A DNA stretch of 7,864 bases from an uncultured Eubacterium sp. Lineage in GTDB: Bacteria > Bacillota > Clostridia > Peptostreptococcales > Anaerovoracaceae. Each line of letters begins with the position of its first letter. Within the stretch, counting starts at the first letter, position 1. The notes below the pieces were generated by a model that worked only from the letters and a program-made list of their open reading frames with translations, was not told where the DNA came from and made no database searches. The translations under genes were made by a program, and so were the position numbers. Of this stretch, positions 4,968-7,864 are shown in pieces. The DNA lies in NCBI GenBank assembly GCA_947367725.1, contig CANBFZ010000078.1:1-7864 (forward strand), written 5' to 3'.

Positions 4968-6509
4968 ATGGACAAAGAATTAATTATTGTTTTGGATTTT
5001 GGCGGGCAATACAATCAGCTGATTGCCCGCAGAGTTCGTGAAGCGGGGGTGTACTGCGAGGTACACCCTTATACAATGCCGCTTGAGATGCTTTTGGCGA
5101 AAAATCCGAAAGGCATCATTTTGACGGGTGGACCGAACAGCGTATATGATATGGAATCTCCCCATTATGACAAAGAGCTTTTCAGCGCAGGCATTCCTAT
5201 TTTGGGCATCTGTTATGGCGCCCAGCTTTTGGCGTGGGCGCTTTCTGGCAAGGTGGAAACAGCACCGGTCAGTGAATATGGAAAAACGGAGATTACGGTC
5301 TGCGGCAAGGGTGGTATTTTGCAGGATGTGGACGATACCACGATCATGTGGATGAGTCATACTGATTATATTGCAGAAGTGCCAGAAGGCTTTGCAGTGA
5401 CTGCCAGCACGCCGGTGTGTCCAGTTGCTGCGATGGAACATGCTGCCAAAAAGCTTTACGCGGTGCAGTTTCATCCAGAGGTGACCCATTCAGTCCAGGG
5501 TAGTCAGGTACTGTCTGCCTTTTTATATGGTCCGTGCGGCTGCAGCGGCGACTGGAAAATGGACGCTTTCGTAGAGAATACCATTGCTGAGATTCGCCGT
5601 AAGGTGGGCGACGGTAAAGCGCTGTGCGCGCTATCCGGGGGCGTGGATTCTTCTGTTGCGGCGGTTATGATGTCTAAGGCGATTGGAAAACAACTTACCT
5701 GCGTCTTTGTGGATCACGGTCTTCTGCGTAAACATGAAGGCGATGAGGTGGAAGCGGTTTTTGGTCCTGCTGGTCCGTATAATTTGAATTTTGTCAGAGT
5801 CAATGCGCAGCAGCGCTTTTATGATAAATTGGCAGGCATCACTGAGCCGGAGGAAAAGCGAAAAATCATCGGGGAAGAATTTATCCGTGTCTTTGAAGAG
5901 GAGGCGCAGAAAATTGGAGCAGTGGATTTCCTGGTACAGGGCACGATTTATCCAGATCTTATTGAATCGGGATTAGGCGATTCAGCAGTGATTAAGAGCC
6001 ATCATAATGTCGGTGGGCTTCCGGATTATGTGGATTTTAAGGAAATTATCGAGCCGCTGCGCATGCTGTTTAAGGACGAGGTGCGTCGCGCAGGATTGGA
6101 ACTGGGCATTCCGGAATATCTGGTATTTCGACAGCCATTCCCAGGTCCGGGACTTGGCATTCGTATTGTGGGAGAAGTCACCGCTGAAAAGGTGCAGATG
6201 GTACAGGACGCGGATGCGATTTACAGAGAGGAAATTGCAGCCGCAGGCCTTGATAAAGAGGTCAACCAGTATTTTGCAGCGTTGACTAACATGCGTTCTG
6301 TCGGTGTCATGGGCGACTTTAGAACCTATGATTACGCTGTGGCGCTGCGCGGGGTAACCACCAGCGATTTTATGACTGCGGAAGCGGCGAAACTGCCTTG
6401 GGAATTGATTGAAAAGGTGACGACCAGAATTATCAATGAGGTGGACCATGTGAATCGGGTGTTCTACGACTGCACAGGAAAGCCGCCAGGGACGATTGAG
6501 TTCGAATAA
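4968..6509 (+). CDS. guaA: GMP synthase (glutamine-hydrolysing)
   Basis: Cytoplasmic GMP synthetase (EC 6.3.5.2), converting XMP, ATP and glutamine to GMP. At 513 residues it is of normal length. The class I glutamine amidotransferase domain (about 1-190) has [10 protein letters not shown], the nucleophile Cys82 in [10 protein letters not shown], and the His169/Glu171 pair in [10 protein letters not shown], so the triad is complete. The ATP-pyrophosphatase domain (about 200-385) has the P-loop [11 protein letters not shown] (SGGVDS at 223-228), [21 protein letters not shown] and [11 protein letters not shown]. The C-terminal dimerisation domain begins near [11 protein letters not shown] (390 on) and ends in the expected [18 protein letters not shown] (4955-4960) lies 7 bases before the ATG. 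It uses the XMP made by GuaB encoded just upstream and is closed by a strong terminator, so guaB-guaA form a two-gene operon. Confidence 0.98.
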
Positions 6510-6512
6510 CGC

Positions 6513-6566
6513 AACGACCCCTACAAACGGTATAAATGCACCGTTTGTAGGGTCGTTTATGTTTTT
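6513..6566 (+). terminator. Intrinsic terminator after guaA
   Basis: AACGACCCCTACAAACGGT (6513-6531) pairs with the arm at 6540-6557 (ACCGTTTGTAG then GGTCGTT), giving 18 pairs with a single bulged C and an 8-base loop. TTTATGTTTTT follows. The hairpin starts within a few bases of the guaA stop, and no A-run precedes it, so it works in the + direction. Confidence 0.93.
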
Positions 6567-6604
6567 GCGAAATGCGCAAGAAACGAAAGAGACCTTCAAT
6601 AGAC

Positions 6605-6634
6605 TTGACAAAAATGTATGGGGGGGGGTATAAT
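6605..6634 (+). promoter_or_regulatory. Consensus sigma-A promoter with a nine-G run in its spacer
   Basis: TTGACA (6605-6610) and TATAAT (6629-6634) both match consensus exactly. The spacer is 18 bases, and its last nine bases (6620-6628) are all G, touching the -10 box. Losing one G would give the optimal 17-base spacer; gaining one would weaken the promoter. The start point should lie near 6641, giving a leader of about 158 bases before the surface-protein gene. The terminator just upstream isolates it from guaBA. Confidence 0.88.
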
Positions 6635-6701
6635 TTTACCGGAGATAAAAAGTATTTTGTTGAAAAGAGACGAATGAAGGAAATCTGTTTTCTTGCAAGG
6701 T

Positions 6702-6741
6702 AAAGATATCGGCGCAAAGCGCACCTCGGGTATATCTTTTT
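6702..6741 (+). promoter_or_regulatory. Leader stem-loop followed by a short T-run
   Basis: AAAGATAT (6702-6709) pairs with ATATCTTT (6732-6739). Within the loop GCGC (6712-6715) pairs with GCGC (6719-6722) across AAA. Five T end at 6741. The outer stem is mostly A-T, so stability is modest. It lies in the untranslated leader of the surface-protein gene and might act as an attenuator; I could not match it to a known riboswitch. Confidence 0.35.
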
Positions 6742-6798
6742 ATAAAGAACATGGATTTACTGCTTTGGTCATATTTTCGTATGAGGAAGGAAGAGCAG

Positions 6799-7864
6799 AT
6801 GAAAGGCAAAACATTAGTAAAGAAGGTAGCCTGTGTTTTGTTGTGTTTGATGGTAGTGCTTGCCTACGCGACTGGATTTCATGATATTTTCAGAGCTAGC
6901 GCAGAGGAACCTACTATAACAGACAGCAGGACAGAGCAGAACGCTGCAGATGAGCCGACTTATGCTGAAGGTTTATTTGGAGAGAATTCTCCGAGTGGTG
7001 TGCTGCCGGATGATGGCGTGGAGCATCCAGAAAGGATTGTAATTGCTTCTTGGACGTGGGTAGACGATGATGAACTGCTGACGTATGATGAGCAGAGACA
7101 GAAATGGTATCTGGACACTGCGGCAGATGAAGAAAACCCGCTTACAGCAGAATTGCTGGAGGGATGTTTCCCGCAGTCCATCAAGGCAGTACTGGAAGAC
7201 GGTACAGAAGAGGAATTAGAAATTACCTGGGACTTTAGCCCGTTAGGTGATGGCGTGACAAAAGGCACACACACTTTGCAGGCTTCTTTACCAGAAGGGT
7301 ATATATTGGCGGAAGATACTGAAGCGCTGGCTGCGACCATAATGCTGGGCGGCAGCATCATGATGGCAGCAGAAGAAACGCAGGAAGGTCAAGTAACTGC
7401 CGGTGGTTTAACCATTACAGGCAAAGGTATTAGTGAGGGAAATGGTGTCACCACTGGTACAGATCCTACATGGGGCGCCTATATTCAGATTGAAACCGAT
7501 ACACCAGTAACAATTTCTGGGACATCAACTACCCATAATATTTGGATTAAGGAAAACACAACAGCAAACATTACGCTGGCTGGTGTGACGATTACAGAGA
7601 GTGCAAAAAAAGATTCTCCAATCAACTTACTTCCAGGAAGTACATGTAATTTGACATTGAAAGATGGCACTACAAATACCCTGACTATTTCCGGTAGTCA
7701 GTCAGCTGCCGCACTTCATGTTGCGCAGACTGCAACCCTTCGTGTCAATGGAAATGGCACGCTGAACGCTACTGGCGGACCAAATTCTGCTGGAATAGGT
7801 GGTGGACATTCAGAAATTGCGGGAACTATGATTTTCAATAGTGGAGTGGTTAATGCTCGCGCGT
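6799..7864 (+). CDS. Secreted surface protein with beta-helix-like repeats (3' partial)
   Basis: Frame 1 stays open to the right edge, giving 355 codons of a larger secreted protein, probably cell-wall attached; any anchor is outside the window. The Sec signal peptide has a basic start (MKGKTLVKK), a hydrophobic core at residues 10-27, and likely cleavage after Ala35 in RASA|EE. An acidic linker follows. A module at about 79-185 (IVIASWTWVDDD, ENPLTAELL, LEITWDFSPLG, GTHTLQASLPEGYILAE) resembles one I recall recurring in clostridial surface proteins. From about 200 the protein is rich in Thr, Gly and Asn, with short strand-like units (ANITLAGVTIT, CNLTLKDGTTNTLTISG, ATLRVNGNGTLNATGG) and GPNSAGIGGGH at 328-337, typical of right-handed beta-helices. 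AGGAAGG (6784-6790) is 8 bases before ATG 6799. In-frame ATGs at 6751 and 6781 lack a comparable site. Ligand and role are unknown. Confidence 0.87.
   Translation, partial: MKGKTLVKKVACVLLCLMVVLAYATGFHDIFRASAEEPTITDSRTEQNAADEPTYAEGLFGENSPSGVLPDDGVEHPERIVIASWTWVDDDELLTYDEQRQKWYLDTAADEENPLTAELLEGCFPQSIKAVLEDGTEEELEITWDFSPLGDGVTKGTHTLQASLPEGYILAEDTEALAATIMLGGSIMMAAEETQEGQVTAGGLTITGKGISEGNGVTTGTDPTWGAYIQIETDTPVTISGTSTTHNIWIKENTTANITLAGVTITESAKKDSPINLLPGSTCNLTLKDGTTNTLTISGSQSAAALHVAQTATLRVNGNGTLNATGGPNSAGIGGGHSEIAGTMIFNSGVVNARA

Follow-up and report, generated by a model that had tools for sequence, protein, structure and literature searches.

A run of nine G residues set between consensus -35 and -10 boxes probably forms a slipped-strand, phase-variable promoter of the porA and TP0126 kind upstream of a predicted surface-protein gene; this promoter most likely rests one slip above its strongest state. 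Among 135 homology groups of such promoters in the matches listed, tract length is not neutral and is read out as total spacing, because shuffled tract lengths predict 20.2 groups with a 17-bp spacer and 7 were observed. The promoter lies in the 7,864-nucleotide stretch of DNA analysed here (the window). In what follows G000 denotes the window's own genome, G004, G007, G009 and G011 denote other genomes of the genus, and L numbers denote loci.

Direct reading confirmed the exact TTGACA and TATAAT boxes and the 18-base spacer ending in nine G residues from which the sequence-only reading had started (Table 1). A search for TTGACA-N18-TATAAT with up to three mismatches gave 11 matches, and only the one at 6605-6634 was free of mismatches, the other 10 carrying two or three. 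The full promoter pattern is present as a single copy in its own genome and its reversed control gave 0 hits. Chance is a poor explanation for the G9 promoter, because the perfect match is single and, in 13 genus genomes, G8 with TATAAT recurs 11 times against 0 hits for the reversed control; a poly-C version of the promoter was likewise found in 0 of the 13. The tract at 6620-6628 is thus a homopolymer of about seven or more bases between the -35 and -10 boxes, as in promoters of the porA/fetA/TP0126 type.

Table 1 Features of the window around the G9 promoter
Feature	Position	Strand	Remarks
GMP synthase (guaA)	4968..6509	+	Context
Likely guaA terminator	6519..6552	+	13-bp perfect hairpin, T-rich tail
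-35 box TTGACA	6605..6610	+	Direct reading; with the -10 box a 12/12 consensus match
Non-G spacer part AAAATGTAT	6611..6619	+	Near variants repeated in sister promoters
G9 tract, proposed slippage site	6620..6628	+	
-10 box TATAAT	6629..6634	+	Adjoins the G tract directly
Predicted 5' leader	6635..6798	+	Predicted start site ~6641; length ~160 nt
Terminator-like hairpin AAAGATAT/ATATCTTT and T-run	6702..6741	+	Read by eye; the terminator scan did not list 6702-6741
Predicted exported surface protein gene	6799..7863	+	Signal peptide-like start, Big_4, Cthe_2159; longest frame from 6751

Since a terminator-like hairpin follows the upstream guaA gene, the G9 promoter probably opens a separate transcription unit. 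An Rfam search of 6480-6840 at E<=1 gave no riboswitch and no RF01051 (c-di-GMP-I), its sole match being sub-threshold and lying over the guaA terminator, and the fold z-score of the leader (-0.42) is unexceptional. A stem like that at 6702-6741 was present in the homologous leaders L011 and L004, the latter with a paired change (GATAC/GTATC), and the L003 leader has a hairpin that lacks a T-run; the element is a possible attenuator of some signal. The N-terminus of the window gene, MKGKTLVKKVACVLLCLMVVLAYATG, is signal peptide-like from a start at 6799 that was chosen by eye. Together with the Big_4 and Cthe_2159 matches and the sortase-type C-terminus of homologues, it upholds on sequence grounds the earlier description of the downstream product as a signal-peptide-bearing surface protein. 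That description had also called the protein repeat-rich, which holds for the homologues: the window gene is truncated by the contig end (7864), and anchor and repeats are visible in homologues only. These homologues are 1300-1383 aa long with an IPRTGD-type C-terminus (read by eye), and for the one in G011 the nearest named relatives belong to Anaerotruncus sp. 80, Anaerovoracaceae bacterium 42-11 and Emergencia sp., which makes an Anaerovoracaceae-type Clostridia the probable host.

The promoter recurs in the genus both with and without the gene. A DNA search of 41 genomes (the window's own and 40 relatives) gave matches in 9, with gene homologues at L003 (90%), L011 (84%) and L004 (76%) and the promoter alone, free of gene homology, at further loci. 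A run of G8 followed by TATAAT was found at 11 sites in 5 of 13 same-genus genomes, with 0 sites for the reversed control; all 11 have a TTG-type -35 (nine TTGACA, one TTGCAA, one TTGCCA) and a spacer of 18 bp (six sites) or 19 bp (five sites). Runs of nine or more G residues number 36 in the genus after overlapping hits were merged by hand. TATAAT adjoins 10 of them, and 16 lie downstream of a TTG-type -35, one of these reaching a contig end before any -10. The window's own genome holds four such promoters, on contigs C78 (the window), C261, C33 (TATCAT, 20 bp) and C131 (run on the -35 side, 16 bp). At family level 12 of 296 genomes gave matches; the eight sites in the seven non-genus genomes were taken as chance-like, since most have G6-G7 or a run apart from TATAAT. 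At the end of G011:C16 (L276) the contig stops exactly within a poly-G promoter (TTGACAAAAATATGTC-G10), as though assembly had failed there. Two poly-G promoters of the window's own genome, at G000:C261:3168 (L213) and G000:C131:294 (L272), precede a small gene (MRIIIDTEKER...LPKNFF...) and then a helix-turn-helix-like gene, and a similar small gene is found in another bacterium (L088); the three loci are possibly a mobile element carrying the same switch.

Most of the genus promoters stand ahead of predicted surface proteins. At 7 of the 11 sites the gene encodes a product of 488-1418 aa that opens with a signal peptide-like segment and, as read by eye, ends in a PRTGD/PKTGD motif, a hydrophobic stretch and a basic tail, so that these C-termini resemble those of sortase-anchored proteins. 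A Pfam search of eight genus proteins gave no Gram-positive anchor domain; Pfam matches on genus proteins were Big_4, Cna_B, VWA with a pilin-tip Ig-like domain and InlB/Listeria-type repeats. The remaining four sites precede the truncated window gene, a transporter (L162), a 66-aa gene perhaps of mobile origin (L024) and, at L161, a 224-aa membrane-like ORF followed by a 1273-aa exported protein that lacks the PRTGD/PKTGD motif. In the pooled set described below, signal- or TM-like N-termini were assigned by a crude hydropathy rule to 100 of 132 downstream ORFs (142 of 162 sites taken, 132 with an ORF within 320 bp) vs 91 of 340 control genes (Fisher P 2e-22), the matching being imperfect since controls came from public-genome loci at >=150 aa and the tested ORFs may be shorter.

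Comparison of related promoters points to slippage. Among 20 homologous promoter pairs (>=78% identity over >=80 bp), which are not mutually independent, G-run length differs in 12 and the length of the non-G part in 8. Examples include same-contig copies with G10 and G9, a G8/G9 pair at 92% identity and a tandem duplicate that pairs G13 with G9; at L232 (G743:C3:188271-188392) two poly-G promoters in tandem, separated by about 90 bp and 88% identical, carry G9 and G13. Orthologous transporter leaders from two species of the genus, L278 (G011:C36) and L250 (G007:C16), have G12 and G9 respectively; the 150 bp past the run show 142 identities against 7 mismatches and 2 gaps, and before it 85 of 120 bp are identical. 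In both, five bases separate the end of the run from TATAAT and no good -35 was seen; the related transporter L162 has G9 abutting TATAAT. Draft assemblies can err by one base in homopolymer length, and one genome per species was compared. The window's own homologues in G000, G011 and G007 all keep G9, so the expectation that tract counts would vary among related genomes held for the pooled pairs and not for this locus: the G011 homologue, at 90% identity in another genome, has the same G9 and 18 bp, and that in G007 has one extra non-G spacer base.

Coding G-runs in the same genomes also differ in length. Three homologous genes carry a G-run a short way past a segment resembling a signal peptide. 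The G9 copy, L273 (G000:C160), is open, and the two G10 copies, L274 (G000:C173) and L281 (G011:C116), are out of frame with a stop just past the run, which probably reflects translational phase variation in the window's own genome and its genus. These comparisons, which are at a comparative rather than strain level, support active G-run slippage in these organisms. Runs of G9-G13 also lie inside coding frames at L287 (G009:C6), L284 (G004:C8:734489) and L280 (G011:C59), of which L287 and L284 are related (NKTDLQANN..., IPAYT). The products are perhaps phage tail or appendage proteins, and phase variation of a phage-like gene is possible at these loci.

The same layout was found well beyond the genus. 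A scan of public genomes for TTGACA-N(6-15)-G7-TATAAT gave at least 119 stretches holding 126 sites, a sample that is neither complete nor random; 42 of the 80 records listed were titled Clostridia or Bacilli, and the others include Saccharibacteria, spirochaetes and Streptobacillus, with many gut MAGs by title. The pattern was present in 7 of 391 genomes of a class sample and in 24 of 151 genomes (32 sites) of one other Clostridia family, and a wider pattern gave 2 stretches in a whole viral contig collection. The public matches listed were pooled with those from the class, family and genus and de-duplicated to 162 sites in the 135 homology groups; these exact-match scans detect a promoter only if both boxes are exact and the run abuts TATAAT, so that other layouts are undercounted in the spacing statistic. 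With one spacer per group among the matches listed, we counted 2 groups at 13 bp, 3 at 14, 15 at 15, 21 at 16, 7 at 17, 37 at 18, 33 at 19, 11 at 20, 4 at 21 and 2 at 22, which puts 106 of the 135 one or two bases off 17 bp.

This scarcity of 17-bp spacers contrasts with ordinary promoters. In the public-genome loci listed, TTGACA/TATAAT pairs lacking a G-run peak at 17 bp (18 of 33) vs 6 of 104 poly-G groups at that spacing (Fisher P 5e-9). When G-run lengths were permuted among promoters and the rest of each spacer was kept, 17 bp was the only significant depletion from 14 to 21 bp (P 0.0001); 14-16, 18, 20 and 21 bp occurred as expected, and 19 bp was in excess (33 groups observed, 25.2 expected, P 0.03). 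The dip is sharpest among G9 promoters, where 16, 17 and 18 bp account for 14, 2 and 23 groups, and is shallower in the other Clostridia family, where 4 of 32 sites have 17 bp. One exception is a paralogue of the window gene on G011:C26, whose -10 is TACAAT and whose spacer is 17 bp. The simplest reading of this distribution is that 17 bp would be the strongest state and that most sequenced lineages would sit one or two slips away from it.

What the 18-bp state may mean can be gauged from copies whose tract is broken. Five promoters of the genus have interrupted or decayed tracts, four ahead of c-di-GMP aptamers and one at a tandem paralogue in G011, and all five have 18 or 19 bp; the genes behind them are open as far as read in four, and L167 may be decayed. 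At G011:C34:181750-187408 (L204) two surface-protein genes lie in tandem, one with a G9 promoter and the other with a broken tract (GGAGAGAGG) in a leader that is 94% identical to that of the window and has the same 18 bp ahead of a complete 1383-aa ORF. This broken-tract copy is a natural locked control. Because broken-tract copies keep 18-19 bp and their genes are mostly open, 18 bp is probably dim rather than off, and a spacing of 18-19 bp may be fixed and functional. The proposal of a phase-variable switch for a surface protein stands as to anatomy, target class and analogy, with slippage supported by comparison, and the wording 'on/off' probably overstates the case at 18 bp.

Several sister loci combine such a promoter with a riboswitch. 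The c-di-GMP-I family RF01051 gave 33 matches in 9 of the 13 genus genomes, and the upstream region was read for 30 of them. Five of the 11 sites with G8 and TATAAT sit ahead of a c-di-GMP-I aptamer, the window site not among them, at a distance of about 10 bases in L010, L013, L015 and L016 and about 120 in L161. Four further aptamers (L167, L183, L188 and L186) follow promoters in which the G-run is interrupted or decayed and the spacing is kept at 18-19 bp, and the other aptamers read are the second of a pair or have no G-run promoter of their own. Rfam scans of 19 non-genus poly-G promoter loci and of L162 gave three RNA matches, none relevant, and gave no relevant match for the L018 leader, which by eye resembles a decayed c-di-GMP-I aptamer. 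At the sister loci, as distinct from the window, expression would require the tract length and the c-di-GMP level to be suitable at the same time.

In the mechanism that we favour, replication slippage would add or remove G residues in the nine-G run and so alter the distance between the boxes and with it the rate of transcription. The sequenced 18-bp state would be dim; loss of one G would give 17 bp, the presumed strongest state, gain of one G would give 19 bp and a weaker promoter still, and the population would retain a minority of bright cells. For a broader claim our confidence is evenly poised: that promoters with a slippage-prone G-run abutting TATAAT are a class of switch found widely at the surface genes of gut bacteria, mostly 'cocked' one or two bases to either side of a 17-bp optimum so that a slip or two would turn them fully on, with a state readable from the genome, and that the Anaerovoracaceae-like genus of the window overlays them with c-di-GMP-I riboswitches and coding G-tract switches to give a two-key adhesin phasome.

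Among other explanations, the most serious is that 18-19 bp is the normal working state, with 17 bp too strong and selected out and slippage a merely tolerated cost. We consider this possible though rather improbable: the locked copies at 18-19 bp, whose genes were read without interruption in four of five and include a complete 1383-aa ORF, speak for it, but spacers of 15-16 bp occur often as well (36 of 135 groups, matches listed) and are equally separated from 17 bp, and pure long G-runs are retained despite their mutability. A fixed operator is less likely again. MerR-type promoters have a long spacer that is twisted by the regulator, and a G-rich 18-19-bp spacer could similarly be a regulator-binding or twist element whose length switches nothing, as the constancy of 18 or 19 bp in 11 of 11 pure and 5 of 5 interrupted or decayed genus copies and the similar letters before the tract would suggest. 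Against this, pure G-runs of 7-15 are spread over many bacteria and their flanks are mostly unrelated (the 162 sites listed fall into 135 groups), spacers fall on both sides of 17 bp, tract lengths differ between homologues, and coding G-runs of the genus differ in frame. A search for inverted repeats >=12 nt found none overlapping the spacer.

The remaining explanations carry little weight. GnT motifs show T-to-G rates raised more than 1000-fold in bacteria (PMC12344412), and the T at 6629 directly follows G9, so that the first T of TATAAT might mutate to G and the switch might consist in destroying the -10 instead of changing the spacing. We think this very unlikely, as TTGACA-N(6-14)-G6-V-ATAAT was found in 0 of 13 genus genomes and the spacing statistics would be left unexplained. 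It is comparably improbable that the G-run is an assembly or sequencing artefact; the genome is a 360-contig draft and the genus contig G011:C11 ends in an artefactual-looking G22 and poly-A, but the G9 promoter is repeated in another genome and 11 sites are spread across 5 genomes. Invertible promoters are the better-known route to such switching in Clostridia, and one here is barely conceivable: the sole inverted repeat >=12 nt in 6300-7100 is the guaA terminator, none flanks the promoter, and nothing was found in favour.

Published systems offer close parallels to the proposed slippage promoter. In Neisseria meningitidis porA a homopolymeric G run likewise lies between the boxes of a promoter for a surface protein, with high surface PorA at 11G, 2.2-fold lower at 10G and 13-fold lower at 9G (PMC3639595). 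The analogy first drawn with this system holds; porA differs in belonging to another phylum, whereas the window tract abuts TATAAT, has two exact consensus boxes, has sister copies with c-di-GMP riboswitches and is known from sequence alone. The poly-G promoter of Treponema pallidum TP0126, an OmpW homologue, also has its G run between -35 and -10 and is transcribed best at 17 nt total spacing (PMC7864442), an optimum measured in TP0126, in another phylum and protein class, and extrapolated to the window. The earlier ranking of 17 bp as strong and 18 bp as middling agrees with this optimum and with the natural rarity of 17 bp. In the gut commensal Bifidobacterium breve, G-tract slippage controls sortase-dependent surface structures (pili), with a range of tract lengths within the population that is modulated in vivo (PMC9187656); there the tract is intragenic rather than in a promoter, which brings it nearer to the coding G-runs of the genus.

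For the pairing with c-di-GMP, the Clostridioides difficile cmrRST operon joins a stochastic DNA switch and a c-di-GMP riboswitch (PMC8844915). Unlike the sister loci, it switches by site-specific inversion rather than slippage, encodes signal transduction rather than adhesins, and has the riboswitch Cdi-2-2, class II by name. C. difficile also has c-di-GMP riboswitches ahead of sortase-dependent putative adhesins (PMC6200980), but these are class II 'on' switches, whereas those of the genus belong to class I, whose C. difficile members are mostly 'off' switches, and lie behind poly-G promoters, and the window gene, unlike the C. difficile adhesin genes, has no recognised riboswitch. The portions of open-licence literature searched contained no report of poly-G promoters in gut Clostridia or of 17-bp avoidance, and the slippage promoters known there are mainly those of a few mucosal pathogens.

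If the pairing of promoter and riboswitch at the sister genes holds, chance switching would be joined to a sensed signal on a single transcript. The rarity of 17-bp spacers offers a testable handle on the state that natural selection keeps in the majority. If the class is real, a draft genome would predict which adhesins are near their on state, and many uncultured gut commensals would share this inexpensive means of diversifying their surface.
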